Shown here: one piece after another, positions 116 to 49,473 of the stretch | Layout of the letters: every line of letters starts with the position of its first letter | How positions within the stretch are numbered: the first letter of the stretch is position 1 | IMG/VR virus record: IMGVR_UViG_3300032116_000316 | Location: 1 to 49,473 of that record | DNA: 49,473 nt | Source of the DNA: a virus | Strand: one strand, 5' to 3' | Translations under genes and position numbers: made by a program | The notes under the pieces: model-generated | Told to the model about the DNA's origin: nothing | Databases searched by the model: none | Seen by the model: the letters and a program-made list of their open reading frames with translations, nothing else

Positions 116-1891
116 TTAAATTTTAGAATCATCCAACAGGTTTTTTTCATCGAGCATACCCGATTTTTCATTTAAAACCTTCTTTTTTGATGAAATTCCG
201 TTTATATATTCACGTGCTAGCTTCTTAGCGTTAGTGTTTAATGTTCTATCTTCTCTTTTTCTTTCTTTATGGTTTTCCTTATCTCCCAATGGGTCTCTAC
301 CATATGGATGCTTATCTTTACCATAGGTGTTTCCTTCTTTAGGTCTTCCAACCCCCCTATTTAGTTCGATTTCAGTTTTTAATTTACTGATTTCTTCTTC
401 CACATTTTGAGGTTGTGGTGGGTTTGCTGGGTCCTGTCCTTGCTGTTCTATTGAAGTATGTCTGAATCTGTCTTTAAGGTCTAATATTACTTTAGCTCTT
501 TCAATATCAATCTCATCCTGCGATAATCCAAATACATTATGATAAGCCCAATCAGATGATAACATATTAAGTGCTTTAACATCAGTTGCTAATCTTACTT
601 TTTCAGACCACAAATTAACTTTTTCTTGCTCATATATTGTAGAAGCGTTTGTAAGCATTAATTCAAAGTTTGTCATTTCTGAATCTTCAATACCATTTGC
701 TGCTAAGTGAACTACTGCAATTTTTGCCAATTCACTAACAACTGTTCTTTGAATTCTTTCAATAGTTCTTGCAAAACGAACATCTTCTGCAGCTAAAGTA
801 GCTTTACCATTTACATTTTCATCATAAGATAGATATGCTTTTGGTACTCTTAGAGCTGCAAATAATTTGTTCTTTAAATAATCAATATCCTCAATTGCTG
901 CATACTCTAAACCTTGTAGATTTTCAATATTAGTACCACTATCACTACCACGTACAGGTAGAAAGAAATCTTCGGTAAGGTTTTGAATATTGTATTTTAA
1001 ATTATAATCACCAGTATTTTTATCAACAAATGGAGTTTTCTTCATTTTGTTAATAATTTTTTGCATATAGTTATCTACTTCTTGTGGTGGGATATTACCT
1101 ATATCAATTTTGAATACTCTCTTTTCAGGTGCTCTCATAATACGATGGATTAGCATCGCATCTTCCATAAGAGATAATTGTTTCCAAATTCTTCTTGCAC
1201 CTTCAACCATTGATTTACCATATGGTAAGAAGTTAGTATCTGATAACATACGGAAGTGAGCCATCTCATATTGCTCATATTCCTTCTTACCAAATCTATC
1301 CAATTCTACCTTATATTTTACATAGTCAGGATTATTAGGGTCAGTACCTTCTAATCTTTCTACATTATAAGTTGAGTGAGGTGCTACGTTGATGATACCT
1401 TTACCAGGCATAATTTCCAATGCTAAGAAAGCATCACCATATTTTACAAGGTTTCTAATCCAAGGCCACAAATTAAACTCTACGTTCATAATATCATAGA
1501 ATAGATTATGAAGCATTTCTCTTACATTCTCATTTGTAGATTTGATTTGAAGTACATCACCATATTCGTTCTTAGTTGTACTTTCATCAGCGTATATATC
1601 AAGTGCCGAACCTATAATCGGGTCCATATCCATAGCATCATAATCTCTAAAAAGTTCTCTACGAACTTGATGATATGCCATAGATTGTGCACCCTGATGG
1701 GTTTCGTAATATGAACGTTGTAACTTTGTGTACCTATCTCTAAGGTTTACAAAGTTTGTATTCATTTGTCTATCTTCAACATCTACTACTCTACGTTTAC
1801 CATCTTTATCAACGGTTACGATTGCGTTTGTTGAAAATAGTTTTTTAAGTCTCCCAAAAAAACTTCTATCGTCTTGGAATTGTTCTGCCAT
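116..1891 (-). CDS. Portal protein, T4 gp20-like
   Basis: Predicted portal protein of 591 residues, which forms the dodecameric ring at one capsid vertex through which DNA is packaged and the neck is attached. The middle carries the stretch typical of T4 gp20 relatives, MEDAMLIHRIMRAPEKRVF, followed by a GNIPPQEVDNYM-type segment and later the IEDIDYLKNKLFAALRVPKAYL region. The length is close to T4 gp20 (about 524) plus a charged, probably disordered tail of some 90 residues rich in K, E and N. It lies downstream of the large terminase, separated only by a small tagged gene, which is the usual packaging-module arrangement. The gap to the upstream gene is 8 bases, so it is probably co-transcribed with it. 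Confidence 0.95.
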   Translation of the reverse strand: MAEQFQDDRSFFGRLKKLFSTNAIVTVDKDGKRRVVDVEDRQMNTNFVNLRDRYTKLQRSYYETHQGAQSMAYHQVRRELFRDYDAMDMDPIIGSALDIYADESTTKNEYGDVLQIKSTNENVREMLHNLFYDIMNVEFNLWPWIRNLVKYGDAFLALEIMPGKGIINVAPHSTYNVERLEGTDPNNPDYVKYKVELDRFGKKEYEQYEMAHFRMLSDTNFLPYGKSMVEGARRIWKQLSLMEDAMLIHRIMRAPEKRVFKIDIGNIPPQEVDNYMQKIINKMKKTPFVDKNTGDYNLKYNIQNLTEDFFLPVRGSDSGTNIENLQGLEYAAIEDIDYLKNKLFAALRVPKAYLSYDENVNGKATLAAEDVRFARTIERIQRTVVSELAKIAVVHLAANGIEDSEMTNFELMLTNASTIYEQEKVNLWSEKVRLATDVKALNMLSSDWAYHNVFGLSQDEIDIERAKVILDLKDRFRHTSIEQQGQDPANPPQPQNVEEEISKLKTEIELNRGVGRPKEGNTYGKDKHPYGRDPLGDKENHKERKREDRTLNTNAKKLAREYINGISSKKKVLNEKSGMLDEKNLLDDSKI

Positions 1892-1899
1892 AATTTATT

Positions 1900-2337
1900 T
1901 TACCATTTTCTACAAGACCAATATCTTGCTTTTGTTCTTGGACCAGGATTATCACAATTGTGTCTAGCTCTAAAGTTTGCTCTCCTGCCAGGGTTATTCT
2001 TTTTGATTTTAACTCCCTTCTGACCGAAATTTACTTTAATAACTTTACCAGTCTTAGGGTTTTTTACATATACCTTAAATTTCTTCACATCACCTGCCAT
2101 TGGTTTACCCAACTTCACTTCTCTACCCTGATACTCAGCTTCGTAAACACAACCACAGTTTGCTTCATCTAATGAACTTTGATAAGATTTAAGATAATTA
2201 ATAAAATCATCCATATCTTCTTGCTCTACATCTAATTCATCATAATCATCTATTGGATTATCAGCCGGTGTATCTCCTTTTGAGTATGCTTTATCAATAT
2301 ACTCATCTTCTTTTAGGATATTTGTTAATTTAATCAT
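1900..2337 (-). CDS. Small tagged protein with Cys-rich RARHNC...WSC end, candidate internal head protein
   Basis: A 145-residue protein of unknown function. It opens with MIKLTNILKEDE, almost the same tag as five genes near 45-47 kb. The tag contains ILKE, matching the (L/I)xE cleavage consensus of T4-type prohead proteases. An acidic stretch follows (about 20-50), then a basic domain with VKVNFGQKGVKI and an end containing FRARHNCDNPGPR and YWSCRKW. I recall this C-terminal signature from many uncultured marine phage proteins near head genes. It sits between terminase and portal, again suggesting a head role. It is the one gene I found with a clear Shine-Dalgarno-like AAAGGAG, 7 bases before its ATG. 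Encapsidation is inferred. Confidence 0.75.
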   Translation of the reverse strand: MIKLTNILKEDEYIDKAYSKGDTPADNPIDDYDELDVEQEDMDDFINYLKSYQSSLDEANCGCVYEAEYQGREVKLGKPMAGDVKKFKVYVKNPKTGKVIKVNFGQKGVKIKKNNPGRRANFRARHNCDNPGPRTKARYWSCRKW

Positions 2338-2398: not shown

Positions 2399-4000
2399 TT
2401 ATAACCATTGTGATAGGTCTTCAATATCATCACCAATTCTCATTTTCCAAGGGTTATCATCTCTATCAGAAGGTCCATAAACACCAGCATGCTGCGTGTT
2501 TGAAGAAATACCACCTAAAGTTCTTTTTGTTAGGTCAATACCTTCTTGTCTTAAACGAAGTGCAGTATCCCTTACCCACAACCCAATACTGAACGCCATT
2601 GTCAAGTCATCATTATAACTTTTCATAGCTTCTGCCCTACCATTATTGAATATAAATGTAAATAATTCATCAATTAATCGGTTAGAACGAATTGTAACTG
2701 CTTTCTCTCTAAAATATTCATCCAATTTAGATATAATAAGAGGTCTAGTCTTTGTTGTAGTTGAAAATCCAGCTACCATCTGTCTTTCATCCGCACGATA
2801 TTTGTTTCTCATTTGCTGTTCAACATCTACATACTTCAAATCTTTACTCATATAGAATAGGTTTTTATATTGTCTATCTATACATTGTTGAATACATGCC
2901 CATCCAATGTTTGAGTTTTCCACCACAAGTAATGCATCATTGTATTCAGTAGAAAGATTAACTAAGAAGTTTCCAAAATCTTTTGTATCTATTTTACCTC
3001 TATATTCAGCTACTTGTGTTGCATTTATTATATCCATAACATGACAAGCGGAATAGTCAGAACCATCACCTCTAGCAACGTCAGCTACAACCATATAAGA
3101 ACCATTTGCTGTTGGATATTCCCATCTCCATAGGTTTCCATCAAATCCAGTCTTTTCAATTGGGTCTTGGCAATATGTTTCTTTATAAAACATTAATAAT
3201 TCAGGATCAATTACAGTATCACCAGAAGATACAAAGTCACAATCACACTCTTGAGCTGCTTTCTTTTGTCCTAATAATTTTTCTTGTTCATCTCTCCAAG
3301 TTTGGTCTCTTTCAGGATGTACTGTCCAATGTAGTTTTATAGTATTAAATGGATTTATCCCATCTTCCGCACCTAACCAAGTTTTATGAAACCAGTTACC
3401 CACACCATTTGGTGTAGATAGTGCAATACAACTACCACCCGTTGAAAGTGTAGATTGCGCCGATACCCAAATTTCATCAATATCATCAATGAAGGCGGCC
3501 TCATCAAATATAAGAAGTGATAAGGCTTCAGAACGTCCTGCATCAGGTGAAGAAGCAATGGCCTTAATTTGAGAACCATTTGTTAAACGAAGGGAAAGTT
3601 TATTATCTTCCATAGAACCACCCTTTAACCAACTTGGAAGTAGTTCATGCATAACTCTTACTTTAGTTACTAGGTTTTTAGCAACTTCTTGTTTTGTTGC
3701 AATTACTAATATATTAAAATCAGAATTAAACAACATATTCCAAAGTGAAAATCCGGCACAAAGAGTTGAAATACCAGTTTGGCGTGATTTAAGAACTATA
3801 TTAAAACGATTGTCTTTAAATCCAGTTAATGTTTTTTCCTGAAATGGGAAAAGGTGAAAAGGTATTTTACCTCTCACCGGATGCTGAATCATACAATATT
3901 TTTTCATAAAGTGTATAGGGTCACTAGCACACTTTTTGTATTCTTCTGCTATAATCTCTTTTAAAGATTTCTTTTGTGTTATTCCAGTTGGTGTAGCCAT
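2399..4000 (-). CDS. terL: Large terminase subunit, T4 gp17-like
   Basis: DNA-packaging motor with an N-terminal ATPase and a C-terminal RNase H-like headful nuclease, 533 residues. Visible motifs are Walker A KSRQTGIST (about residue 71), Walker B LLIFDEAAF (about 162) and the coupling motif STP (about 196). The nuclease acidic residues are in VVADVARGDGSDY (about 307), VVENSN (about 361) and YNDDLTMAF (about 464). I chose the ATG at 4000, which starts two bases after the upstream stop codon. A longer frame exists only by using a TTG at 4009, which would overlap the upstream gene. The length is somewhat shorter than T4 gp17 (610). Confidence 0.97.
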   Translation of the reverse strand: MATPTGITQKKSLKEIIAEEYKKCASDPIHFMKKYCMIQHPVRGKIPFHLFPFQEKTLTGFKDNRFNIVLKSRQTGISTLCAGFSLWNMLFNSDFNILVIATKQEVAKNLVTKVRVMHELLPSWLKGGSMEDNKLSLRLTNGSQIKAIASSPDAGRSEALSLLIFDEAAFIDDIDEIWVSAQSTLSTGGSCIALSTPNGVGNWFHKTWLGAEDGINPFNTIKLHWTVHPERDQTWRDEQEKLLGQKKAAQECDCDFVSSGDTVIDPELLMFYKETYCQDPIEKTGFDGNLWRWEYPTANGSYMVVADVARGDGSDYSACHVMDIINATQVAEYRGKIDTKDFGNFLVNLSTEYNDALLVVENSNIGWACIQQCIDRQYKNLFYMSKDLKYVDVEQQMRNKYRADERQMVAGFSTTTKTRPLIISKLDEYFREKAVTIRSNRLIDELFTFIFNNGRAEAMKSYNDDLTMAFSIGLWVRDTALRLRQEGIDLTKRTLGGISSNTQHAGVYGPSDRDDNPWKMRIGDDIEDLSQWL

Positions 4001-4001
4001 A

Positions 4002-4694
4002 TTAATCAACAGGAGGTTTTACTAAATCGTAGTTTTTATCTTTTAATTTATCCCAAGCTTCGTTTCTCCATTTTATTGCCTGTTCAACCTCACCTTCATA
4101 AAATGTAATATCAGAAAGTATTTCTGCTTTTAATTCATCCACATCTTTTTCCAATACCCATTTTTCAATCTTACCATCTTCATGTACAAACTCATATTCT
4201 TGCTTTGCATCTTTGTAAGCTTGATGTAATTGTTCTAAAATATCTTTACCTCTTGAAATAATATTAGATAACATTTTATAATGTTCATATTCTTCCCACA
4301 AACCATCTAATTTTATTAAAGTTTCTTTTTTACCTAAACAAGTTGCACAATATCCAGTTTTAGAAATAAGTTTTTTATCTGCTCTACTCAATTTAATAGT
4401 ATTACAATTTTCAGATTTACAACTATTTAATTTGGATAGATAATCTCTTACTTCAGACATTGTTTCTGATAGTTCATTTATTCTTACTTTACCATACTCT
4501 GTTTGTTCCCAAATTTTTCCTTCTGAATCGGTCCAACGTTCACCTACTTCTTTTTTACGATTATTTTCTGCGGATTTATCAGAGTTTGCGAATGATATTT
4601 GTGTATTTTTTTCATACTCACCACCCTGCAATACCATATTTACCAACTTTCTGCGAGTTGGATGCATGTATTTTTTTTGGAATTCCTTTGACAT
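4002..4694 (-). CDS. Unknown protein upstream of terminase, possible small terminase or zinc-binding protein
   Basis: A 230-residue protein I do not recognise by sequence. The first 60 residues are basic and polar. A possible zinc ribbon follows, with CKSENC at about 93-98 and CATC at about 117-120. The C-terminal half is long, charged and helical, likely coiled coil. It sits directly upstream of the large terminase, where T4-type phages place the small terminase (gp16), and the two are almost certainly co-translated. Position and the helical C-terminus make it a candidate small terminase, but T4 gp16 is not known for a zinc ribbon, so this is a weak inference. Confidence 0.7.
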   Translation of the reverse strand: MSKEFQKKYMHPTRRKLVNMVLQGGEYEKNTQISFANSDKSAENNRKKEVGERWTDSEGKIWEQTEYGKVRINELSETMSEVRDYLSKLNSCKSENCNTIKLSRADKKLISKTGYCATCLGKKETLIKLDGLWEEYEHYKMLSNIISRGKDILEQLHQAYKDAKQEYEFVHEDGKIEKWVLEKDVDELKAEILSDITFYEGEVEQAIKWRNEAWDKLKDKNYDLVKPPVD

Positions 4695-36589: not shown

Positions 36590-38625
36590 TATCTTACTCT
36601 ACCTTTAATGTCTGAATCAGGAAACTTTATTTCAAAAACTGAAGGGTCTAAAGATGGATAAATAATTTTATCTTTAGTAGCTGCTTCAATATTATAAGAA
36701 TTGGAAGAATACTTTCCTCCGCATTTATTTGTAAATTTTAACATTGGTACAGATGAAACACCTTCTACATTTGCTATTAACAATTCTACCTCACTCAAAT
36801 TAATTGTCTGATTAAATGTCCAATTATCGATATTAAAATAATCTTTAAGTTCGTTTATTACTTTTAAAAGAATTTCACTTTTATTGTAATTTCCATAAAC
36901 AACAATTTCAAAATCTAAACCAATATTAATTACAAATCCATCATTTATGTTAATACCATCTGTTAAAATTCTATATTCATTTAAGTAAGTTTTAAGATTT
37001 TCTTTGACACCTCTATTAAGGTTTGTTAAGTTTCCTCTATTATCATATCCCAACAAATACAAATTTATTGCAAACGGATTATTTTTTTCATTTTCATTTG
37101 AAGTTTTGCCAATTAAATATTTTGTTATTTCTTCTTTTATACTTTGTTGAGTTGGTTCTTCAGCATCAGGCTTATTAACAAAACTCATTACTAAATCAGT
37201 AAATTCTTGCAAATGATTTGGTGATGCTAATATAGAAGATGGTGAGTTATTATCTAATGTACCATCTGCTACAGCGTATGCTTTTGCAATAGCACCATAT
37301 TTTGCAGGCATTGATAACGTTCTTACTTGATAATCTTTTGCAGTTACTGCTCTATTTTGTGCTCCAAAGAAAGCTAAAGCGTTTTGTCTAATTTCTTCTA
37401 AACTTTCAGCACTTCTACCACCAGTAGCTGGTACTTCATTATCAATTGCTACTGAAGCTTTGATTGTATTGTAAATTGCTTTTTCTGCAGTTGTAAAAGC
37501 GTCTGTATCTTCATCCAATTCAATCTTACTTATTCTAGTAAGTTGTCCTACTGCTATATTAGATTGAACACCTCCGCCAACTAAATACTTTACAGTCATT
37601 GTTGTATTTGATGGGGATGTACCATAAGTTTTTGTTTTTAGAAAGTTAGTAGGGTCAAATGATTCATCTAATCTATCTATTGAGTTTGGTAAACCAAGTC
37701 CTACATTTTTTAAATTTGGTATTAATTGTTCATCACTAGCTGATGAATCGCCTGCACCAAATTGTATTGTTGTTGTATTATTTTGATTTACTTTTGAAAC
37801 ATATCGTCTTGATGTCTTTATAGTTTTTAAGATATAAGGAACAGTAGATTTAAATTGATACAAATCAGGATCATTTTTTTCTAAATTAGGTTCATCTAAA
37901 AAAACCATTTCTTGAGCTAAATATGGAACTTCATACCATTTGTTTCCATTACCATCTCTTACATCATAAATTTGTATAACATTTGTATCATCTAAAGTAA
38001 TTTTTTGGAAAGGGGAGTATGCATCAAAAGTAACTGATTTTTGTTTCAGTTCTCCAGATATTGCTTGAACGTATTTTTTAACTAAATAAAATAAAGGTTC
38101 ACCAGTATTAGCATCTCTTTGATATATTGTAATTTCTCTATTTGTTTCATCTGAAAAATCTACAACATCAGTTGTTCTAAATGTTATAGCTGCTTTGTTT
38201 GATTTTGTTATTAATCCTTCTTTAATTCTTAAATAATATTTTGAATCAGGAATGTTATTAATACCAGTTCCAATTGATGGAACTAACTGATATATACTTA
38301 AATTTGTAACAGCTGGCGCAGATACTTTTGGTTTATATCCCAAATATTGTGCCAATGCTAAAACACTTTGAGGGTCTTCCGCATACACCATTAATGATTC
38401 TTTTAAAGTATCATCAATATAATATGATAATGAATCACCTATGTACGATGCCATTTCAATAAACATCATACCGGGTGATGATTCATTAAAATCTGAATAA
38501 GTTTTAGGAAAATACGTTTTAGCAAATTCTATTAAGTTGTTTCTAAATGATACAAAATCTTTATTAAGATACTTAATATCTTTTCCTTTATTTTTAAAAT
38601 TTTTATTTGTAATTGTTACTGACAT
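36589..38625 (-). CDS. Baseplate wedge protein, T4 gp6-like (Baseplate_J)
   Basis: A 678-residue wedge protein; in T4, gp6 dimers form the inner baseplate ring. The N-terminal part has FRNNLIEFAKTYFPKTYSDF followed by ESSPGMMFIEMASYIGDSL, the standard gp6 start. The centre has GGRSAESLEEIRQNALAFF and QNRAVTAKDYQ, the Baseplate_J core. The C-terminal third covers the repeated alpha/beta domains. The length matches T4 gp6 (660). It directly follows gp25, as in T4-like phages. The stop shares a base with the next start. Confidence 0.92.
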   Translation of the reverse strand: MSVTITNKNFKNKGKDIKYLNKDFVSFRNNLIEFAKTYFPKTYSDFNESSPGMMFIEMASYIGDSLSYYIDDTLKESLMVYAEDPQSVLALAQYLGYKPKVSAPAVTNLSIYQLVPSIGTGINNIPDSKYYLRIKEGLITKSNKAAITFRTTDVVDFSDETNREITIYQRDANTGEPLFYLVKKYVQAISGELKQKSVTFDAYSPFQKITLDDTNVIQIYDVRDGNGNKWYEVPYLAQEMVFLDEPNLEKNDPDLYQFKSTVPYILKTIKTSRRYVSKVNQNNTTTIQFGAGDSSASDEQLIPNLKNVGLGLPNSIDRLDESFDPTNFLKTKTYGTSPSNTTMTVKYLVGGGVQSNIAVGQLTRISKIELDEDTDAFTTAEKAIYNTIKASVAIDNEVPATGGRSAESLEEIRQNALAFFGAQNRAVTAKDYQVRTLSMPAKYGAIAKAYAVADGTLDNNSPSSILASPNHLQEFTDLVMSFVNKPDAEEPTQQSIKEEITKYLIGKTSNENEKNNPFAINLYLLGYDNRGNLTNLNRGVKENLKTYLNEYRILTDGININDGFVINIGLDFEIVVYGNYNKSEILLKVINELKDYFNIDNWTFNQTINLSEVELLIANVEGVSSVPMLKFTNKCGGKYSSNSYNIEAATKDKIIYPSLDPSVFEIKFPDSDIKGRVR

Positions 38626-38635
38626 ACTTTATAAA

Positions 38636-39064
38636 TTATGCTGCTACGTTAAATGTTACTGTATTTAAATTTGCGTTACCCAAAACATTAAATTGAATTG
38701 ATACTTTTACTGTATTTGTATCTTTATCATAATTTGTTGCTTCAACATCTATTTGTTGAATTGTTATATAAGGTAACCAAGTTGTAACCGCATTATTGAT
38801 TGTTTCTTCAATTTTTCCTGCTAATTCATCATCATTAAAATCAAATAACAATTCTTGCAATCCACTACCAAATTCAGGTTGCATAATTCTTTCACCTCTT
38901 TTAGTTAGTAATAAATTTTTTATATTAGAACTTGCTTGTTCAGCTGTTTTAAATGATTGATTAAAAGCAGTATTACCTATTTGAATAGGTAGTGTTATAC
39001 CAACAGCATAATCATCAAATTTTTTTGTATCTTGTACAAGCTTTTGTCCTAATACTACTGCCAT
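38636..39064 (-). CDS. Baseplate wedge protein, gp25-like
   Basis: A 142-residue protein with the GPW_gp25 fold, which joins the sheath and the baseplate ring. KTAEQASSNIKNLLLTKRGE followed by MQPEFGSGLQELLFD is the diagnostic core, and the remaining beta-strand segment ends VSIQFNVLG. The length is normal for the family (T4 gp25 is 132). It sits next to the gp6-like gene, as in T4. It shares one base with the upstream gene stop. Confidence 0.93.
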   Translation of the reverse strand: MAVVLGQKLVQDTKKFDDYAVGITLPIQIGNTAFNQSFKTAEQASSNIKNLLLTKRGERIMQPEFGSGLQELLFDFNDDELAGKIEETINNAVTTWLPYITIQQIDVEATNYDKDTNTVKVSIQFNVLGNANLNTVTFNVAA

Positions 39065-39585: not shown

Positions 39586-40554
39586 TTATGCCCATAATGT
39601 GTTATCTTTTTGCAAATCTGTCCAATACAATGTAAATTTCTTAATTCTGTCATCCAATCCATTATATCCACCATTAATACGTTTTGTTACAACTTTAATT
39701 GTTGTGGTTGATGAATCTACACATTTAGCACCCAATTTATTTGCTTTCCAAAATAAACAAGCTGTGTCAGCGAAGTATTTTGTACCTACTATTGTTGGAT
39801 TACTTTCAAAATCAGCTCCAGCAACAGGTCCAAACTTTCTATAATTAGCTCTACCTGTTAATTGAATATATCCTCTACCTTTGTATCTAGGTCCATCACC
39901 AGGTTGAGTATTTCCCAAATCTTTTCTACCTTCGTATGCTTTTCCAGATGCAATTTCTTCTTTATATATAAAATTACCTGATTCGTGATTTGTTTGTGCT
40001 AAAAAATGTGCTCTTTCCAAAGGTGTTCTACCTACACTATATTTTCTCATTGCTAAAACCAATTCATTTGGTACTTTAAGTTTACTTTTATAATTTGGTT
40101 CTTTTGGTATATCATTTTTAGGTTTTTCCTCATCTGTTAATGGTGGGTCTGGTGTATTACCTGCCTCTTGTTCTAATTGTTTTTCTATTTCTTCTAATTG
40201 TGCAGTAACATTTTCTGTTTCTTCCGGTGTAGCTGGTTCAACAACTACTTCTTCATCAAATGCAACCGCTGTTGCTTCGTTTATATCAGCGCCTTCTAAA
40301 GTTGCTTCTTCTGATGCTAATAATTGTGCATCGGTCATTTCAATTTCTTCAGTACTAACTGTTGTGGTAGATGGATTTGGTGGTTCTACATTATATCCCT
40401 GCCAATTAGCTATACCAGGTCCTGGTGTATTGGCTGGTGGATATGTTGATACCGTATTAACAATACCACTAACTGTGGTTAAATGCTGCTGGGCATACCT
40501 AATAAATTCATCAATTAATAATTCGTAATTTTTAGTAGGAGGTATTGCTGCCAT
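39586..40554 (-). CDS. Virion-associated GH19-type muramidase/chitinase-like lysin
   Basis: A 322-residue peptidoglycan hydrolase. Residues about 160-322 are a glycoside hydrolase 19 domain. AHFLAQTNHESGNF (182-195) supplies the first catalytic glutamate, YEGR (207-210) the likely second, then GRGYIQLTGRANY (227-239) and RINGGYNG (292-299). Residues 1-60 form a probable docking domain that ends GPGIANWQGYNV. Residues 60-160 are an acidic, proline-rich linker. Encoded in the baseplate block next to the spike and an M15 peptidase, it is more likely a tail lysin for entry than a late endolysin. No signal peptide. Confidence 0.88.
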   Translation of the reverse strand: MAAIPPTKNYELLIDEFIRYAQQHLTTVSGIVNTVSTYPPANTPGPGIANWQGYNVEPPNPSTTTVSTEEIEMTDAQLLASEEATLEGADINEATAVAFDEEVVVEPATPEETENVTAQLEEIEKQLEQEAGNTPDPPLTDEEKPKNDIPKEPNYKSKLKVPNELVLAMRKYSVGRTPLERAHFLAQTNHESGNFIYKEEIASGKAYEGRKDLGNTQPGDGPRYKGRGYIQLTGRANYRKFGPVAGADFESNPTIVGTKYFADTACLFWKANKLGAKCVDSSTTTIKVVTKRINGGYNGLDDRIKKFTLYWTDLQKDNTLWA

Positions 40555-40555
40555 A

Positions 40556-42232
40556 TTATGCTTCTCTTTGTTGTTTTGTCAATGTTTGAAATCCCCAATA
40601 TTCCCAATGCCAAGCTTCATCACACCCCTGCCCATCTGCTAGTCTATATGGATTATACCAACCAAATGCAGGTCCATTCTTTGCTAACCATTGATAAATT
40701 TTAGAGTTTTCTCTGGTATATTTTGCTGGAGCTGGTTTTGCTCTACCAACGCCCAATTGTTTTGCTTTAGCCTCTTGCATACCACATATCTCACCAAAAT
40801 CTAAAGATAATCCCCAACCATGTGGTGATGAACCTGGCTTAGCAGCACTGCTGGGTCCATACTTTTCATAACAAGCAAGTTGACCAGCATAGTCTCTATA
40901 TGTAGATGATACTCTCCATTTTATTCCATCTTTTTTTGCTCTAGCAATAAGTTTGTTATACATTTTTGCAGCCTCAACGTGCAATATACCACTACCATAA
41001 GATGAATCAATATTTCCTAATTTATCTTTTGGAATTTTACCATTTCCAAAGCTAGCTAAACCTGGAGGTGGTGGTGGTGCAGTTGCTCCAACATTTGTTG
41101 CAATTTTAGGAGGGTCTCCACCTTCTGATACTGTTGTTGGCTTTCTTTCTGTTGTTACTAAATTTGCTTTTTCTTTTCCAACATATGTAAGAGAACCCCA
41201 ATGACTTATTCCGCTTGGTGTTTTTGAAGTACCACTTATAGCACTACCTCTAGCTTCGGTAGGACCTGAATAAACATTTAGTATTGGTACACCATTTTTT
41301 ATTGCATTTAAAATTATTTCTTTTGTATTTGCAGATTCGGTAAATGGTTCTATTATAAATAATTTTGATTTATCAACAATTTCACTATTCGATAATTCAA
41401 AAGCTCTAACACATCCTGCACTAAATAAAAATACAGGAACTTTAGGACTATTTTTCATACCCAAAATTACTTCAGCTGAAGTTGTTGTATATCTAAATCC
41501 TTTTACTTTTTTATTTTTTCCAAAACCATCTTTAAATAATTCAACTTGCTTATCAATATTATAATCACCATCTCTATAATCTAATCCACCAACTAAAATT
41601 GCATCAAATTCTGGTAGCGGTTCTGTTTCTTCAACTGGTTCTTCTTTTACTTCACCAATTTCTACTTCTTGTGGTTCATAAAGTTCAACAGTAACTTCTT
41701 CTACAGATTCAACTTCTACCGCAACATCATCAATTGGTACTTCACCTAAAATTTCTTCCGTTTCGCCAATTTCAACTTCAGGCATATCATCATCTTTTTC
41801 ATTTTCATTTCTTATATCAGGTTCTTCTCCCAAAACTGGTTGCTGCCAAGTTCCAGCATTTGTACAAGTCATACTTACAATTTGAATATTTTGCACTGCG
41901 CCTGTTGCTGGTGGTGTTTGTGGTGGATTTTGTATTGATGTTGGGTCTAATTGAGCCCCATTCCAATATGCTAATACACCCTTTCCCATTTCTCCTACCA
42001 AATCATATGGTTCTGTCTGAGAATTTCCTTTTTCTAAAGCTAATTTAAATAAATCTTTTAATGAGCCGGAATTACCCATTTTAAATTTAGCTTGAAACAA
42101 ATTATCTTTTCCTCTTTTTATTGCTTCATCATATTCAGTTGCATAAGCTGTTGCAACCACTTCAATATCGTTTATTGATTCTGGATTTTGTGCTAATCTT
42201 AATATATTTTGCTTAAAAGTTTCCCAAGACAT
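40556..42232 (-). CDS. Virion-associated M15 (VanY-like) D,D/L,D-peptidase with extra alpha/beta domain
   Basis: A 558-residue protein. Residues about 1-100 form a helical docking domain ending GKGVLAYWNGAQL, similar to the corresponding motif of the adjacent GH19 lysin. A very acidic linker covers about 140-205. Residues about 210-345 look like an alpha/beta domain (FDAILVGGLDYRDGD, VPVFLFSAGCVRAF, GVPILNVYSGP) of unknown role. The C-terminus (about 410-558) is a peptidase_M15 zinc enzyme: VSSTYRDYAGQL, SSPHGWGLSLDFG with the His and Asp ligands, and EAWHWEYW with the Glu-x-x-His-type end. The two lysins cut different peptidoglycan bonds. Confidence 0.88.
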   Translation of the reverse strand: MSWETFKQNILRLAQNPESINDIEVVATAYATEYDEAIKRGKDNLFQAKFKMGNSGSLKDLFKLALEKGNSQTEPYDLVGEMGKGVLAYWNGAQLDPTSIQNPPQTPPATGAVQNIQIVSMTCTNAGTWQQPVLGEEPDIRNENEKDDDMPEVEIGETEEILGEVPIDDVAVEVESVEEVTVELYEPQEVEIGEVKEEPVEETEPLPEFDAILVGGLDYRDGDYNIDKQVELFKDGFGKNKKVKGFRYTTTSAEVILGMKNSPKVPVFLFSAGCVRAFELSNSEIVDKSKLFIIEPFTESANTKEIILNAIKNGVPILNVYSGPTEARGSAISGTSKTPSGISHWGSLTYVGKEKANLVTTERKPTTVSEGGDPPKIATNVGATAPPPPPGLASFGNGKIPKDKLGNIDSSYGSGILHVEAAKMYNKLIARAKKDGIKWRVSSTYRDYAGQLACYEKYGPSSAAKPGSSPHGWGLSLDFGEICGMQEAKAKQLGVGRAKPAPAKYTRENSKIYQWLAKNGPAFGWYNPYRLADGQGCDEAWHWEYWGFQTLTKQQREA

Positions 42233-42233
42233 T

Positions 42234-43484
42234 TTAAGATGTTTTATTAAGTTCGCTCAATACTGATTTTAATTTGGATTTGATTGTATTAAATTTAGGA
42301 ACATTTGTTGGTCCTGTTGCAGATGGACCTGCTGGTGTTAAGAATACTTGTTGAACTATTGCATCTATTAATTCTTCCATCAATGAAACCCAAGCATCAC
42401 CTTTTACCAATGGTTCTAATTTTGTATTTCCCAAATTAATTTTTCCATTACCAGTATTTAAATTTATATCTCTATCGTTAGTATTATAATTTGTAGAATC
42501 ACCAACGTTTACATCAACTCCTAATTTATTATCAATAGAAAGAGAACCATCTGAAATAAATCCATAATTTTTCTTTGAATAAAAAATCATTTCAGCGTTT
42601 TTAGCCGAAAGAATAATTCTTCCAGAATTTATTAATATTTGGTCTCCAATTAATTTAGATGGATACGCTTTAAACGTATTTGGTTTCGTTTCAAAATCAG
42701 TAGAACCTTTATCATCAACAGTTCCAGGTTGAAATGGTAATTGATATTGATTTGATGATAAAACAATTATACTACCATCTCTATTAATATCTTCTTCAGT
42801 AGAAACCTTTAATTCTTTCTTTTTTGATTCAGCATTTTCAGAATTTCTTATAATAGTTGTTGGAGAAAATATTTTTTGAGAATTGTTATATCCACTAAAT
42901 CTTATAGATTGTCCAAATCTTGTCTCTATTAAACTATCACCTTCATATAATTTTAATTTATGAATTCCAGCTTCACCTTCAAAATAATTTCCATATTTGT
43001 CATACTTTGATGATTCTTTTACGTTAGTTTTTGGCGTATTGGTTTCTGCTGTTGTTTTATATGATGTATTTTTGTCTTCTGGAATTTGGGTTGGCGGAAA
43101 TGTTTCAGAAATTATTGTTTTTTTAGCATCAACATTTGGTGTTTTTTCTTGACCAATTCTTTTATAATATGATGTACCACCATTTTGAAATATTTCTACC
43201 GATTCATTTATTAATGGTAGTGTTTTAAAATTTTTATCAAAAGGAAATGCAACTGGTAAAGATGCATCATCTGAAGATGGTTGTCCAACTAATCTATATT
43301 GAACTGCTCCTATATAAGATGTTTCTCCAAAAAATTCTAAATCTTTATCACCAACGTGCTTAATATACTCATGCGTTTCATCAAGTATGATAGAATACAC
43401 TATTCCAAACCCCTTTGGTGCACCAGATCCCGCCGTTTGTGCCGATTGAGCCGCTGCTGATTGTGGACTTGATAATTCTGCCAT
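42234..43484 (-). CDS. Baseplate hub/spike protein, T4 gp5-like without lysozyme
   Basis: A 416-residue protein. Residues about 25-110 look like an OB-fold domain (GFGIVYSIILDETHEYIKH, then YIGAVQYRLVGQ and TLPLINESVEIFQNG). A charged linker of about 60 residues follows. Residues about 165-345 are repeated short beta strands typical of a trimeric beta-helix spike (GIHKLKLYEGDSLIETRFGQ, INSGRIILSAKNAEMIFYS, DINLNTGNGKINLGN). The C-terminal helix may be a coiled coil. Unlike T4 gp5 there is no lysozyme domain; the two neighbouring genes may provide that activity. The assignment rests on pattern and context. Confidence 0.72.
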   Translation of the reverse strand: MAELSSPQSAAAQSAQTAGSGAPKGFGIVYSIILDETHEYIKHVGDKDLEFFGETSYIGAVQYRLVGQPSSDDASLPVAFPFDKNFKTLPLINESVEIFQNGGTSYYKRIGQEKTPNVDAKKTIISETFPPTQIPEDKNTSYKTTAETNTPKTNVKESSKYDKYGNYFEGEAGIHKLKLYEGDSLIETRFGQSIRFSGYNNSQKIFSPTTIIRNSENAESKKKELKVSTEEDINRDGSIIVLSSNQYQLPFQPGTVDDKGSTDFETKPNTFKAYPSKLIGDQILINSGRIILSAKNAEMIFYSKKNYGFISDGSLSIDNKLGVDVNVGDSTNYNTNDRDINLNTGNGKINLGNTKLEPLVKGDAWVSLMEELIDAIVQQVFLTPAGPSATGPTNVPKFNTIKSKLKSVLSELNKTS

Positions 43485-43929: not shown

Positions 43930-44742
43930 TTATTCTGCGATTACCTCAATCTTAATCTTTGGTTGATAATCTTTTGGTAATTTGTTAGTAATACCTTTAA
44001 ATTCTTTTACTTTGTTCTTAAAATAAGTAATTTGTAAGATTTTATCAGTAAGATTCATTACAGTCTGAGAAGAAGTTGACATCTCATTTGTATCTCTTTT
44101 CATATTCAATTGAGGTCTTTTTGGGAAGAACTCTTTTCTCATAGCTGCTGCTATTTCTTTCCAATCTTCAACTCTATCAACTGATTTTTCAGCTGATATC
44201 TTTCTCATTTTTGATGATAGGTATTTCTCACCATGTGTGTATCCGGCATCAGTAAAAAGATGTCCGTGATTTGTACGAACAACTGGTGATTCGGAGTTTT
44301 GAAGTTTAACATCAGGCTTATGCTTTGATGTAGTTTCAATACTAATCAAATGTTTTGGTGATGATACGAAAGTGTGACCTTTAAGAGATAAACCACTACT
44401 ACCTTTATAAGATATTGCAGCTCTAACGGCTTTTATTAGTGTAGGTTGTTTAATAATATTTCTCATCTTATCACCATCAGGACCCGGCTTACCACCTTTC
44501 TTTACTATCTTAGCTTCTGCTTCATCATGTCCAACAAGTAATGCTGAGTTTACTACACCAATACCATGTTCATTCAAACCTTCACTCCAATCAGTAATTA
44601 AATCATGCAAATACGCAACTTCTACACCATCAATAATGGTATGGACAATTTCAAGTTCTGGATTATACATTCTATCCCTATTTTTAGCAAGGATAAATTT
44701 ATCACCAACTTCTTTTGATACAATAATACATTCGTTTATCAT
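43930..44742 (-). CDS. Ntn-hydrolase (TANGO2/NRDE or C45-like), nucleophile cysteine at position 5
   Basis: A 270-residue N-terminal-nucleophile amidohydrolase. MINECIIVSK places the likely catalytic cysteine at residue 5. LAKNRDR (18-24) is the conserved Asn-Arg-Asp element, GLNEHGIGVVNSA (55-67) the oxyanion-loop region, and VRTNHGH (155-161) a further conserved block. Family members cut amide bonds of small acylated molecules or peptides; the substrate here cannot be told. The ATG overlaps the upstream TGA (ATGA), so the start is secure. The four residues before Cys5 end in INE, a match to the (L/I)xE prohead-protease consensus, so cleavage would yield N-terminal Cys. The gene closes the tagged cargo cluster. 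Confidence 0.78.
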   Translation of the reverse strand: MINECIIVSKEVGDKFILAKNRDRMYNPELEIVHTIIDGVEVAYLHDLITDWSEGLNEHGIGVVNSALLVGHDEAEAKIVKKGGKPGPDGDKMRNIIKQPTLIKAVRAAISYKGSSGLSLKGHTFVSSPKHLISIETTSKHKPDVKLQNSESPVVRTNHGHLFTDAGYTHGEKYLSSKMRKISAEKSVDRVEDWKEIAAAMRKEFFPKRPQLNMKRDTNEMSTSSQTVMNLTDKILQITYFKNKVKEFKGITNKLPKDYQPKIKIEVIAE

Positions 44743-44972
44743 CTTACAGTACTGCTAAATGCTTTTTTTAAATCGTATGTTTGTGAAAGGTCTATAACCT
44801 GGACTCTTAATTTTGTCAAACCATGTTTTTGTTTAAGAATATCCATTACCTTCTTAGCTTCAGGCATACTCTTAGCTTTTGTATATGCTACAACTTCATC
44901 TCTTTCACCAGGAGGAACTCCCCAAATGATGAATTCTTTTTCTTCTTTTAATAATGATTTAAGAGTTATCAT
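44739..44972 (-). CDS. Small tagged protein, candidate internal head protein
   Basis: A 77-residue protein. The tag MITLKSLLKEEKE ends with LKE, a (L/I)xE site at 8-10. The remainder (IIWGVPPGERDEVV, MPEAKKVMDILKQKHG, LRVQVIDL) resembles a single small alpha/beta domain. Function unknown. It overlaps the Ntn-hydrolase start by 4 bases and the upstream tagged gene stop by 4 bases. Confidence 0.72.
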   Translation of the reverse strand: MITLKSLLKEEKEFIIWGVPPGERDEVVAYTKAKSMPEAKKVMDILKQKHGLTKLRVQVIDLSQTYDLKKAFSSTVR

Positions 44973-45517
44973 ATAGTTTGTAGCCCTTGTTTTTCTGCGT
45001 ATTGATTAATAAAACCTTTTACTTGTCCACTTTTTAAAACATCGGTAAATTCTTCAACTGCTTTATTTAATGTATTTAATTTCCATTGTGAATATGTAAG
45101 TTCTAATTTTGTATCACCAGGTATATCCTTTGAATTTTTATCTTTAGATGGATATAATTCTTTAAACACTTTATCTAACTCATCTTCTGCAGGCTTACTT
45201 GTCAACCATTTTTTAACTAATGATTTTTCATAAACAAAAGCCTCAAAGTTAAACTTACCATCTTTTGATTTTGATTCTAAACTTTTTAGCTTATTATCAT
45301 TTTTTAAAGTGTAGTAAACAAACTTATTAAACTTATCATTTTTATCTAATCTATCTAACCACTTTAAATAAGCTTTACCAATTTCTTTTTCTTTTACCGA
45401 ACCACTTCTGAATGAAAGGATAGCTTGTTTAATTGCCCATATAGCAGCGGTTACTGCTATATTAATTAATATAGTTGTAGTGATATCTTCTTTTAAAAGT
45501 GATTTAAGTTTTATCAT
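44969..45517 (-). CDS. Tagged protein with a membrane-type helix, candidate internal head protein
   Basis: A 182-residue protein. MIKLKSLLKEDI is the tag with a possible cut after LKE (8-10). It is followed at once by a hydrophobic stretch at about 12-36 (TTILINIAVTAAIWAIKQAI), long enough to cross a membrane. The rest is lysine-rich and helical. If the tag is removed, the hydrophobic helix would become the new N-terminus. That could suit an ejected protein that inserts in the host inner membrane, but this is inference. Its ends are tightly coupled with both neighbours. Confidence 0.72.
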   Translation of the reverse strand: MIKLKSLLKEDITTTILINIAVTAAIWAIKQAILSFRSGSVKEKEIGKAYLKWLDRLDKNDKFNKFVYYTLKNDNKLKSLESKSKDGKFNFEAFVYEKSLVKKWLTSKPAEDELDKVFKELYPSKDKNSKDIPGDTKLELTYSQWKLNTLNKAVEEFTDVLKSGQVKGFINQYAEKQGLQTI

Positions 45518-45999
45518 TATCCTTTACAGGTTTTCCAGCCACCACCTTTTGATTTGTAATTTTTTGCAGCCCAACCATTTGCGTAAGCCGATGGATATAC
45601 ATCAAACTTTCTTTTTGCTGCTGCTTTTGATGCTGACCATTTTGCTGGGTCAGTTGGACAATTCTTTTCTAAGAATAATTCTATTGCTTCTTCAACAACT
45701 TCTCTTTTCTTTCTACCCTGACAATGTGCTTTTTGAGAAAATCCTTTTGGGTTATTACAATCAATAGAACGTTTATAAGATGTACTCCATTTTTCATTCA
45801 TTTCACCAAGCCCACATCTTTCCATAAACTCATCGGCGTTTACATCAATACCTTCTTTTTTGAAATCTCTTAATCTATCCAATGCCATTTGTTTGCGGTT
45901 ATCTATATCTTTAACCTGAACTAGCATTTCAACAATACCATCAATCATTTCTTTTTGATGAGGTTGTTCTTCTTTTAATAAATTACTTAACTTAATCAT
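45517..45999 (-). CDS. Tagged two-module protein (DCNNPKGFSQKAHC and WSASKAAAKRKF modules)
   Basis: A 160-residue protein. The tag MIKLSNLLKEEQ contains LKE. A helical segment follows, then a first short Cys/His motif, SIDCNNPKGFSQKAHCQGRK (about 93-112), and a second module, CPTDPAKWSASKAAAKRKFD with YPSAYANGWAAKNYKSKGGG near the end. Both modules are ones I recall from many small uncultured-phage and algal-virus proteins, the second perhaps linked to DUF5872, which I cannot verify. They are basic and might bind nucleic acid. Stop and start share one base with each neighbour. Confidence 0.75.
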   Translation of the reverse strand: MIKLSNLLKEEQPHQKEMIDGIVEMLVQVKDIDNRKQMALDRLRDFKKEGIDVNADEFMERCGLGEMNEKWSTSYKRSIDCNNPKGFSQKAHCQGRKKREVVEEAIELFLEKNCPTDPAKWSASKAAAKRKFDVYPSAYANGWAAKNYKSKGGGWKTCKG

Positions 46000-46313
46000 T
46001 ATGCACCTGTTTTAACAAATGTTGGTTTTTGGCCTTTTGATTTTTCGCCACCTTTCTTAACATCTCCTGCTTTAGATTGTGCTGCTCTTTTTCTTTTTAC
46101 AAATGCTGCTCTACCATCGGGTCCTAACTTAGCTGCTTTTTCTTTTGATAAACAAGCTGCATAAGATGAACCTTCTTTACTATCACCACATTTACCTACC
46201 TTCTCACCTTTAGAGTTATATCTATCCCAACCACCACCGGTAGTAGAACCAGTCTTACCTTTACCAAACCACTTACGAAGGTCTTCAGCCATTATGTCTC
46301 TTAGTAGTATCAT
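45999..46313 (-). CDS. Small basic protein of the tagged cluster (DUF5872/6321-type)
   Basis: A 104-residue, strongly basic protein. EDLRKWFGKGK is followed by a GGGWDRYNSKGEKVGKCGD segment, SSYAACLSKEKAAKLG and an Arg/Lys-rich end (AAFVKRKRAAQSKAGDVKKG). I recall this layout from small phage proteins assigned to DUF5872 or DUF6321, uncertainly. The start MILLRDIMAED resembles the cluster tag but has MxE rather than LxE, so processing is less certain. High positive charge fits DNA contact inside a head. Confidence 0.72.
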   Translation of the reverse strand: MILLRDIMAEDLRKWFGKGKTGSTTGGGWDRYNSKGEKVGKCGDSKEGSSYAACLSKEKAAKLGPDGRAAFVKRKRAAQSKAGDVKKGGEKSKGQKPTFVKTGA

Positions 46314-47524
46314 TATTGGATATAGGCATTTAATTCATAAGAATTCTTCATACCATAAACCTGAATATGTAGCATTTTTCTTTGAGGTTTACCATCTTTA
46401 GTTAATTCAATAGAAAATCTATTTGTTTTTCCCGGTGATGGTTTTCTAGGACCTACACCTATTTTTGTAAAAGCATCATCATTGTTTATTTCATATCCTT
46501 TTTTCTCCGCATAATTTCTAGCTGCTTCAATAGCTGATGTATATGATTTATGATATACTTCGTAATCCGATTTTGCTTCACTAACTACTTTCTTACTTGG
46601 AAATGATACCGTTGGTATATTTCCAAATGTTTTATCAATTTTAGCATCAATACCAAATTTTGATTTTAACATCTTTACAACATCATTACCAAACTTTATA
46701 TCAGTAAGTTTAAGATAAATGTAATTTCTATTAGGTGCATTTTCAACATGTCCTTTTACCATTTTTGAACCTATTGCTTTAACAATATCATCCACTACAT
46801 CTGCTGCAAGATATCCTTTAAGTTGAGATTCTCTGATTGGGTTGCCATCTTTATCTGCTACATAATACGCTGTCATATTACTTCCACCTTTCATTAACTT
46901 TTCAGTTTTTTCTACTTCTTTTTTTGCAGCATCGTATGATGTAAATACATCCTTAAATACTCCCGTACCCTGTCCTCTACCTTTGTTATATCCAACATAA
47001 TATTTCCCATCTGATACGTTTACTCCTTGTAAGTAAGTACCCATACTATCGGAATATTGCATAATATATTTAGTACCATCCTGTCCAATGTGTTTATTAT
47101 ATTTAGGTATTCTATCCCACTCTTGCTTAGAGATGGTTTTTTTAAGCTTAACAGTTGCTTCGTTTACTAAATTTTCAAATTCCTCTCTTAGATATGCAGG
47201 TGAATACTTATCATATTTTGCAGTACCATTCAGAATATTACCTCTAGCGTTTTTAGCAGGAGTGTTATATCCTGCTGCTTTTAATAGGTCTCCTTTTTGG
47301 AATCCTTTGGATGGGTTATCAACTAATGCAATAAATCCCCAAGCAGATTCCTGTCCACCTTTTCTATTTTTGTGAGTAATTCTTGCATACTTACCACCAC
47401 CAGAAGATACAGTGTATTCTTGGTCTGGAAATTGTTTGTTTAACTTATCAATAAACTTATCAATATCTCTTTTGATATCTTCGTTTAATGTTCCTTCGAT
47501 TAATAATGATTTTAAAGATATCAT
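46313..47524 (-). CDS. Tagged three-module protein, candidate polyprotein of the head
   Basis: A 403-residue protein. The tag MISLKSLLIEG has LIE (8-10), and LNE (13-15) follows. Module 1 covers about 16-118 (a helical opening, then ARITHKNRKGGQE and GDLLKAAGYNTPA). Module 2 covers about 123-313, with a repeated KYYVGYN/YVADKDGNP-type beta pattern and an end resembling a small alpha/beta domain. Module 3 covers about 317-403 (SDYEVYHKSYTSAIEAARNY, then SIELTKDGKPQRKMLHIQVYG), recalled as a common uncultured-phage module. Between modules stand LVNEA (119-123) and VVSEA (313-317), near-matches to the (L/I)xE cleavage rule. Function unknown. Confidence 0.75.
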   Translation of the reverse strand: MISLKSLLIEGTLNEDIKRDIDKFIDKLNKQFPDQEYTVSSGGGKYARITHKNRKGGQESAWGFIALVDNPSKGFQKGDLLKAAGYNTPAKNARGNILNGTAKYDKYSPAYLREEFENLVNEATVKLKKTISKQEWDRIPKYNKHIGQDGTKYIMQYSDSMGTYLQGVNVSDGKYYVGYNKGRGQGTGVFKDVFTSYDAAKKEVEKTEKLMKGGSNMTAYYVADKDGNPIRESQLKGYLAADVVDDIVKAIGSKMVKGHVENAPNRNYIYLKLTDIKFGNDVVKMLKSKFGIDAKIDKTFGNIPTVSFPSKKVVSEAKSDYEVYHKSYTSAIEAARNYAEKKGYEINNDDAFTKIGVGPRKPSPGKTNRFSIELTKDGKPQRKMLHIQVYGMKNSYELNAYIQ

Positions 47525-48208: not shown

Positions 48209-49473
48209 TTAAAAAACCATTTTAGAACCAATTTGGAAGTTATTCATCAAATTAAACTTTGGTTCTAATGACATAACCGCTTTATAGGATGCAGAAAATG
48301 CAAATCTTCTACTTAATCGGTAATCAAATCCGCTACCCACTATAAAACCAGGTGTTCTGGTTACCATAGTTGCCTGTGTGAATGTATTAAAACTAATTGG
48401 AGAATTCATAAAGAAAACTTGCGGAGATATAGTAATCTTTTTATTGTATTGATATGGTTTAGTCCAAAATGCCACAAAAGATGTCATCAAACTCAAGTCA
48501 TAACCACTGCCATCCATCTTCTTCATCTCTAATCCAATTAAACCCACATTATAACCGTATGTTCCGTATTTTGGATGTGGTTTGATATAAGTGTATCCCA
48601 ACATCTGCATTAACGTTCCTTTAAGGTATGCAGCCGTTACTGAGTATGAATGTATTGCGTTTAGTTTACCCTCTTCAAAGTCCATCTTTGTCATACCACC
48701 ACTTAATGCAAATTGGTCTAAGGTACTCCAAACTAATGCCGTAGCTGAATATGATTTATCACCCATTAGAGATGATTTAGAAATACCAGCACTCATCATT
48801 ACGGCATACTTTCCTTCCGCATCTTCCGTACCTGCTAAATCAGATGAAAGCATCATTGGATTAGCTCCAACTTTTTTCTCTTTCTTTTTTTCTTCTTTTT
48901 TCTTTTCTTCCTTCTTCTCCTCTTTCTTTTCCTCTTTAGATTCCTCTTTCTTTTCTTCCTTTTTTTCTTCCGATTTTGATTCTTCTTTCTTTTCCTCACT
49001 CTTGCTTTCGGATTTTGATTCTTCTTTAGATTCGGATTTACTTTCTGATTTTGTTTCAGATTTAGTTTCACTCTTTTGTTCCGATGAAGATGAACTACCT
49101 CCGCTAGATGAACTTCCCTCCGATGATGAACCACCACCTCCGGATGAAGATGATGAACTACTTGATGATGAACTACTACTTGAAGATGAAGCGGTTGAAC
49201 CACTACTTGCTGGCGGTGGTGAAGATGATGTTGGTGGTGGAGTTGATGCCGCCGATGAAGCCGCTGCTGATGATGCTGAACTACTTGCGGCAGAACTTGC
49301 TGATGAAGATGCTGCTGAACTTGCAGCCGATGAAGCTGCAGAAGCGGCTGCTGATGCAGCTTGAGAAGTTGCCTGATTTACAGTTTGGTTTACTGTCTGC
49401 TGAACAACTTGGTTTGTAGGACATCCCATAGTTGAGTATGCTGCATAAACTCCATTTAACCAAGCCTGAACTA
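48209..49473 (-). CDS. Low-complexity Ser/Ala- and Lys/Glu-rich protein with beta-strand-rich end (5' partial)
   Basis: The first internal ATG is at 49429, but the frame stays open to the right edge (reading VQAWLNGVYAAYST before that ATG), so the start probably lies outside the window. The visible part has a Gln/Thr opening, about 90 residues of Ser/Ala then Ser/Gly repeats, about 70 residues of Lys/Glu/Ser repeats, and a C-terminal ~200-residue beta-rich domain. That domain shows alternating strands (SYSVTAAYLKGTLMQMLGY, GSGFDYRLSRRFAFSASY) and ends in phenylalanine (GSKMVF), as outer-membrane barrels do. An outer-membrane or virion-surface protein is possible; a signal peptide cannot be judged without the missing end. 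Confidence 0.72.
   Translation of the reverse strand, partial: VQAWLNGVYAAYSTMGCPTNQVVQQTVNQTVNQATSQAASAAASAASSAASSAASSSASSAASSSASSAAASSAASTPPPTSSSPPPASSGSTASSSSSSSSSSSSSSSSGGGGSSSEGSSSSGGSSSSSEQKSETKSETKSESKSESKEESKSESKSEEKKEESKSEEKKEEKKEESKEEKKEEKKEEKKKEEKKKEKKVGANPMMLSSDLAGTEDAEGKYAVMMSAGISKSSLMGDKSYSATALVWSTLDQFALSGGMTKMDFEEGKLNAIHSYSVTAAYLKGTLMQMLGYTYIKPHPKYGTYGYNVGLIGLEMKKMDGSGYDLSLMTSFVAFWTKPYQYNKKITISPQVFFMNSPISFNTFTQATMVTRTPGFIVGSGFDYRLSRRFAFSASYKAVMSLEPKFNLMNNFQIGSKMVF

Follow-up and report, generated by a model that had tools for sequence, protein, structure and literature searches.

The N-terminal peptide of about ten residues that recurs on otherwise dissimilar genes in the IMG/VR virus record IMGVR_UViG_3300032116_000316 most probably serves as a capsid-targeting sequence of T4 type that is cleaved by the phage's own gp21-like protease. 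The window, that is, the whole stretch analysed (49,473 nucleotides, positions 1 to 49,473 of the record), is a fragment of a T4-like phage. Computation establishes the shared peptide (the tag), shows that it fits the T4 rule and sits on unrelated bodies, and locates the protease and a conserved capsid-protein site in relatives; from these results we infer that the tagged proteins are packaged, cut and ejected. What is new here is the form of the tag, the phage group that carries it, the wide range of candidate cargo, and the fusion of modules at protease-like junctions. In all sequences below, a slash follows the Glu of a site or candidate site.

For tag detection, the rule ^M..[LIVMFY]..[LIVMF][LIVMF].E was applied at the start of each open reading frame (ORF). 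As a result, 6 of the 39 window ORFs were selected, which are exactly the five cluster genes and the ORF 1900-2337. These are the genes that an earlier note on this DNA had singled out, five in a cluster and one between terminase and portal, and all are present with the N-termini quoted there (Table 1). When residues 2-10 were shuffled within each N-terminus, the mean was 0.2 matches and the maximum 2, and none of the 300 shuffles reached 6. Together with the scrambled DNA pattern described below, the shuffles rule out chance N-termini as the source of the tag. The resemblance claimed at the DNA level was also recovered: gene pairs have 17-28 of 33 bases in common over the first 33 nucleotides, compared with 15-24 of 66 over the next 66 nucleotides (15 pairs each). 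Two other claims held in part. The bodies behind the tags are unrelated insofar as the best mutual BLAST alignment has an E of 0.02 with the tag included, but the ORF of 403 amino acids (aa) comprises several modules and not one body. The range 43930-47524 does contain the five tagged genes, but also the gene 43930-44742, which has no tag. The inventory of six strict tags stands, with the omission of a seventh, looser start, MKGLAKYLIETILGE/AA, on the 921-aa ORF 4747-7512, which fails the strict rule at position 7.

The tag columns that are kept, 4, 7, 8 and 10, are the positions mapped in T4 IPIII. There, mutagenesis of the capsid-targeting sequence assigned residues 4 and 7 to targeting and residues 8 and 10 to processing (excerpts of PMC9026906). 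As a T4 control, the rule was applied to the 60-110 kilobase (kb) stretch of T4, where it was met by 3 of 72 ORFs, namely IPII, IPIII (MKTYQEFIAE) and gp24 (MAKINELLRE). The T4 record annotates IPII and IPIII as internal virion proteins and gp24 as cleaved by gp21. T4 IPI was missed because its propeptide is longer, and Alt is absent from the features of that stretch and so lies outside the control; both differ from the tag in having propeptides of other lengths. The tags of IPII and IPIII and the gp24 propeptide resemble the present tag in their roughly 10 N-terminal residues with hydrophobic positions 4, 7 and 8 and Glu10, in the unrelated bodies behind, in the T4-type protease of related phages, and in the (L/I/V)xE capsid-protein site. 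In contrast, the residues here are others (MIKLxDILxE), the candidate cargo families are many more and more enzymatic, candidate cargo modules are also found fused, and cutting and packaging are predicted. The proposal that T4-like phages load varied proteins through such tags has been made before (excerpts of PMC9026906). The agreement with the mutated IPIII positions, the T4 control and the conserved capsid-protein site support the earlier note's identification of the tag as a T4-like capsid-targeting sequence.

The prohead protease, on whose presence the earlier note had made its reading depend, was found in the relatives. Contigs with 96-97% identical portals carry a gene matching Peptidase_S77, the family of T4 gp21, among the genes that follow the portal. 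The protease sample comprised 20 contigs, of which 12 were chosen large contigs from the tag scan described below and 8 were relatives obtained via the portal or gene 42234-43484. Peptidase_S77 was present in 18 of these 20 relatives or tag-bearing contigs, in all 14 of those of at least 90 kb, and in 10 of the 12 picked from the tag scan itself. It was found in none of 14 control contigs fetched with a neutral 20-mer (35-99 kb; those of at least 35 kb among 27), a comparison weakened by the smaller size of the controls. The capsid gene of a relative matched Pfam Gp23 (E 3.6e-75). In the column of the gp23 cut site FLTE/A (Glu65), all 12 of the group's other capsid proteins have [LIV]xE followed by Ala, Ser or Thr, and Val is common at P3. 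Additionally, in G007 five consecutive genes with MIKL starts (123311-125921) lie between the protease and capsid genes. Three of them meet the full rule, two of these from an internal Met, and one untagged gene separates the run from the protease. The scaffold gene of the group matches no family and was named by position only.

We then searched IMG/VR with a codon-degenerate tag pattern, which matched at least 120 viral stretches, compared with 9 in the whole collection for the same codons in scrambled order. Among the matches listed, each of the 134 stands at the start of an open frame that is 60 aa or longer or reaches the contig end, and 125 of 134 have an upstream stop within 20 codons; the tag-scan count is a lower bound. 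We excluded tag-scan matches that ran off the contig or were shorter than 60 aa, as well as census genes interrupted by a piece boundary; the remaining 170 items gave 134 distinct bodies, from which four judged chance matches were removed. The resulting 130 tagged bodies, each 60 aa or longer, group into 68 BLAST families among the matches listed, in line with the earlier note's suggestion that scanning for the tag could reveal further candidate cargo. Bacterial and archaeal contigs (257 billion bases) yielded 104 matches in 99 stretches, 23 of them at ORF starts. In a census of relatives fetched by the portal gene or gene 42234-43484, independently of the tag, hydrophobic residues 7 and 8 plus Glu10 occur in 37 of 55 distinct MIxL starts, compared with 0 of 8 in the control contigs. 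The 37 starts represent 7 BLAST families (the largest with 18) and the other 18 starts represent 10, so the excess is smaller by family than by count. The shuffle test was applied to 13 sequence sets, and in 10 of them none of 300 shuffles reached the observed number. The tag was not found described in literature searches, conducted mostly at the listing level, and the tag strings matched 0 papers.

Two observations on other tagged genes were recorded along with the scan. A second tag family, MQ(Q/K)LAG(L/I)(L/I)xE, occurs in G009, G011, G012 and immuto; it stands directly beside the protease in G012 and near it in G011, there after a leader such as MKQPINEIKR. The cultured Flavobacterium phage immuto has tagged genes with the starts MIKLIDLLTE, MGNLADLLLE, MISIYNILKE and MQKLAGIITE. 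The cultured Microcystis phage Mel-JY01 has two tagged genes, MIKLKSLLQE and MIKLMSLVTE (L312:10276-10926 and 12056-12718), which are alike by eye; the first matches no PHROG.

The candidate cargo is diverse. Among the best 25 of 30 Pfam families on the 130 tagged bodies, Zeta_toxin matched 10, AAA_33 9, DUF5872 3 and DUF6934 3, with single matches to ART-PolyVal, NT5C, RNase_T, dUTPase and cytidylyltransferase. Among the best 25 of 46 PHROG families, which overlap with the Pfam matches, an ATPase family matched 12 bodies, polynucleotide kinase 7, and 5'-3' deoxyribonucleotidase 5; a terminase small subunit family, unlike cargo, matched 3. PADLOC matched 6 families, each on one or two of the 130 bodies. 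If the tag is a capsid-targeting sequence, a ten-residue rule reads out the head-travelling proteins of a large, mostly uncultivated T4-like group, and many uncharacterised genes become a testable list of early effectors. The candidates include polynucleotide-kinase-like and zeta-toxin-like P-loop enzymes, 5'-nucleotidases, an ADP-ribosyltransferase domain and nucleotidyltransferases.

A virion precedent comes from the T4-like cyanophage S-SM1. Purified S-SM1 virions yielded 41 detected proteins, including the putative cytidylyltransferase T4-GC190 (Sullivan et al. 2010, excerpts of PMC3037559). This protein, SSM1_190 in the S-SM1 record, starts MKKFSAFLNE/AERSF and meets the rule, as do 3 of 226 S-SM1 ORFs in all, the others being the tail protein gp5 and one uncharacterised gene. 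T4-GC190 and the N-terminal part of the 921-aa ORF have PHROG 395 in common (E 3e-13). In contrast, T4-GC190 is 387 aa long and shows weak direct homology to the 921-aa window protein, at 25.6% over 121 aa and E 0.032.

Fusions of cargo modules, absent from the earlier note, extend the reading to longer proteins. The bodies of separate tagged genes were sought inside longer ORFs of other contigs. At the homologous junction, [LIVMF]xE ends exactly at offset 0 in 84 of 294 distinct contexts, and offsets 8 to 20 from the junction have a mean of 6.7 and a maximum of 20 contexts. Counted by module group, offset -1 or 0 is occupied in 28 of 41 groups, compared with a mean of 4.6 and a maximum of 8 far off. 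Offsets +2, +3, +4 and +5 (36, 10, 44 and 32 contexts) lie inside the shared module; a broad-window count around the junctions (35 of 41 module groups) was therefore set aside, and only offset 0 or -1/0 was used. In the control with untagged gene starts inside longer ORFs (308 queries), 29 of 1741 contexts have the site at offset 0, and some offsets elsewhere score higher (+2 with 129, -5 with 83). Of the 84 junction sites, 57 are followed by Ala, Gly or Ser. The density of [LIV]xE[AGS] is hardly raised in tagged ORFs (3.47 per 1000 aa, versus 3.08 in untagged ORFs; 2.42 and 2.53 after shuffling), so the junction claim rests on position and not on number. The placement of (L/I/V/M/F)xE sites at module junctions is well supported.

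Three window genes illustrate these junctions. The last module of the 403-aa ORF follows VVSE/AKSDYEVYHK and exists in G001 as the separate gene MIKLKDLITE/AKSDYQVYHK, with both Glu residues in one alignment column. The 182-aa body (44969-45517) follows an internal KLSEILKE/G in a longer tagged ORF of G001 (L096:7192-7959), and the DLRKWF body (45999-46313) follows PISE/ inside a longer ORF of G002. A second candidate site of the 403-aa ORF, at E122, is weaker because it is located in a predicted helix. Candidate junctions of the 921-aa ORF are LKE/A (E259), LSE/G (E519) and LLE/G (E524). The structure models are weak, with a mean predicted local distance difference test score (pLDDT) of 58 for the 403-aa and 61 for the 921-aa protein, and were used for linkers alone. 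All four strict [LIVMF]xE[AGS] sites of the 921-aa model fall at pLDDT below 50, in segments that make up 287 of 921 residues; 3 of 4 do so in the 403-aa model, where such segments make up 107 of 403 residues. As a separate observation, near-identical relatives of the 403-aa ORF (L109:4244-5296 and L110:3631-4749) carry central in-frame deletions of 53 and 31 residues.

The junction pattern is suggestive of cargo polyproteins processed by the prohead protease, and we infer cutting at the module junctions; the 403-aa and 921-aa window ORFs are candidate cargo polyproteins. In its full form, this proposal is possible, although we stop just short of calling it probable: one tag would bring a chain of two, or several, effector modules into the head, and cutting of E-S-(V/I/L)-x-E/(A/G/S)-like junctions in the closed capsid would fall to the shared prohead protease rather than to an embedded peptidase, with modules switching between separate tagged genes and fused chains. 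Such processing was not found for T4-like head cargo in a limited search of literature excerpts, and within that search it would, if true, be a new processing mode.

The nearest idea for the fusions is that of polyvalent proteins, which have many effector domains per polypeptide, are thought to be head-packaged in phages, and have been compared with viral polyproteins (Iyer et al. 2017, excerpts of PMC5512222). The 921-aa ORF resembles them in its multiple domains, and ART-PolyVal is found on 1 of the 130 tagged bodies, among the matches listed. They differ in that the excerpts ascribe release to embedded peptidase domains, whereas the candidate cutter here is a separate prohead protease; Pfam detected no peptidase domain in the 403-aa and 921-aa window ORFs. 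The ejection-protein propeptides of SPN3US and phiKZ-like phages are likewise N-terminal propeptides of head or ejection proteins removed by a related protease, but several are longer than 100 residues and cutting takes place at A-x-E or S/A/G-x-E (excerpts of PMC5694885), compared with about 10 residues and L/I/V-x-E here.

The proposed mechanism is as follows. Late in infection, the hydrophobic face of residues 4, 7 and 8 would dock the tagged protein on the assembling head core. Once the shell has closed, the T4-type prohead protease would cut after Glu10 and free the body. The DNA would then be packed around the freed bodies, which would enter the next host along with it. As an extension, several cargo bodies could travel as one polyprotein, and the same protease would cut its (L/I/V)xE/(A/G/S)-like junctions.

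Several results weigh against this mechanism. The window ends just past the portal, before the head-maturation genes, which leaves the protease gene outside it, and two tag-bearing contigs (73 and 78 kb) have no protease; these could perhaps be fragments. In the shuffle test, G008 (observed number reached by 26 of 300 shuffles), Mel-JY01 (17 of 300) and G003 (2 of 300) have a weaker or no clear excess. The S-SM1 case fits the reading but is weak alone because 41 proteins were detected in that virion; the rule-matching tail protein gp5, probably a chance match, was detected likewise, and T4-GC190 was not detected in an earlier S-PM2 study (excerpts of PMC3037559). We came across no virion proteomics of this lineage, and the name immuto was absent from the Flavobacterium phage paper checked. 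Finally, 47 of the 129 distinct tagged bodies have Ile or Val as residue 11, unlike the Ala, Ala and Ser that follow Glu10 in T4 IPII, IPIII and gp24, so the cutting of every tag is not assured.

This last point favors targeting without cutting, in which the tag docks to the head core and stays, or only some tags are cut. T4 IPIII with Asp at position 10 behaves in this way, keeping targeting and losing processing (excerpts of PMC9026906), which means that the two are separable. We nevertheless consider this alternative improbable, since position 10 is Glu in 37 and Asp in 1 of the 55 MIxL starts from relatives that were not chosen by the tag, and since [LIV]xE recurs at the capsid-protein site and [LIVMF]xE at the module junctions. 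Two further alternatives are both very improbable. In the first, the initial 30 bases are a shared translation start or recombination cassette, a spreading DNA element with a functionless peptide. The sharp fall in similarity behind the tag and the overlaps of 1-4 bases between cluster genes and their neighbours would suit such an element, whereas the conservation of positions 4, 7, 8 and 10 with varied positions 5, 6 and 9 would not, nor would the same pattern with other residues in distant phages (MKTYQEFIAE in T4, MKKFSAFLNE in S-SM1, MQQLAGLLKE in G009). Position-specific conservation rules out a pure DNA cassette; a second table of position conservation is not independent because it includes tag-chosen loci. 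In the other, the tag directs proteins to a different late structure, for example the tail or baseplate, as the baseplate-wedge genes near the cluster and the unmatched neighbour gene 42234-43484 might suggest. The G007 tags between protease and capsid genes, the sixth window tag between terminase and portal, and the T4 matches, which are head proteins, all point instead to the head. Least probable of all is that the tag has nothing to do with the head and forms an amphipathic helix serving early takeover of the host at its membrane; this suits the host-takeover-like enzymes among the bodies (P-loop kinases, nucleotidase, ADP-ribosyltransferase domain) but leaves Glu10, the junction sites and the head-operon tags unexplained.

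The 921-aa ORF has two or more unrelated domains: an N-terminal adenylyltransferase-like domain, DUF5661, and a C-terminal module that is a separate gene elsewhere. The first resembles nicotinamide mononucleotide adenylyltransferase (Foldseek E 7.8e-5, profile E 1.9e-5), by which head cargo may include nicotinamide adenine dinucleotide metabolism. The C-terminal module carries a KTDG motif, presumably nucleotidyl-ligase-like, and reached T4 Rnl1 at rank 47 (E 0.29); its ligase identity is a lead. It has no real BLAST match to SSM1_189, which has a KxDG-like motif too.

In the untagged 270-aa gene of the cluster, residue 5 is an invariant Cys. The leader before this Cys ends in [LIVM]xE in 12 of 13 distinct homologues (MINE/C, MKLSE/C, MKLKE/C), and the 13th starts MC. 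One of the 13 homologues weakly matched the Pfam acyltransferase family AAT (E 0.005), and no PDB sequence relative of the gene was found at E up to 1. From these sequence features, the product may be an N-terminal-nucleophile hydrolase, whose Cys the prohead protease could in principle expose.

Table 1. Positions of the tagged ORFs, candidate sites and other features in the window.
Feature	Position	Strand	Remark
Portal protein	116..1891	-	adjoins window end, next to relatives' head-maturation genes
145-aa tagged ORF, MIKLTNILKE/D	1900..2337	-	between terminase and portal
Terminase large subunit	2399..4009	-	
921-aa multi-module ORF, looser tag-like start MKGLAKYLIETILGE/AA	4747..7512	-	
SbcC- and primase-like genes			present in window
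Baseplate-wedge genes	36589-38625 and 38636-39064		about 5 kb from tag cluster
VanY-domain gene and endolysin/chitinase-like gene	39586-42232		
Neighbour gene of the cluster	42234-43484		no family match
270-aa untagged ORF in cluster, MINE/CIIV...	43930..44742	-	
77-aa tagged ORF, MITLKSLLKE/E	44739..44972	-	
182-aa tagged ORF, MIKLKSLLKE/D	44969..45517	-	
160-aa tagged ORF, MIKLSNLLKE/E	45517..45999	-	weak DUF5872 match, E 0.0026, below curated cut-off
104-aa tagged ORF, MILLRDIMAE/DLRKWF	45999..46313	-	
403-aa tagged ORF, MISLKSLLIE/G	46313..47524	-	several modules
E316 codon, candidate prohead-protease site VVSE/AKSDYEVYHK	46577..46579	-	model segment 311-321 low-confidence
E122 codon, candidate site LVNE/ATVKLKK	47159..47161	-	in predicted helix

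Two other window ORFs, both on the minus strand, are recorded here. The ORF 19636-22788 matches metallophosphoesterase families at its N-terminus with SbcC behind, and by sequence it resembles T4 gp47 joined to gp46 (names per the S-SM1 record). The 406-aa ORF 48209-49429 has long Ser/Ala, Ser and Lys/Glu repeats after MGCPTNQ, a start that appears lipoprotein-like by eye.

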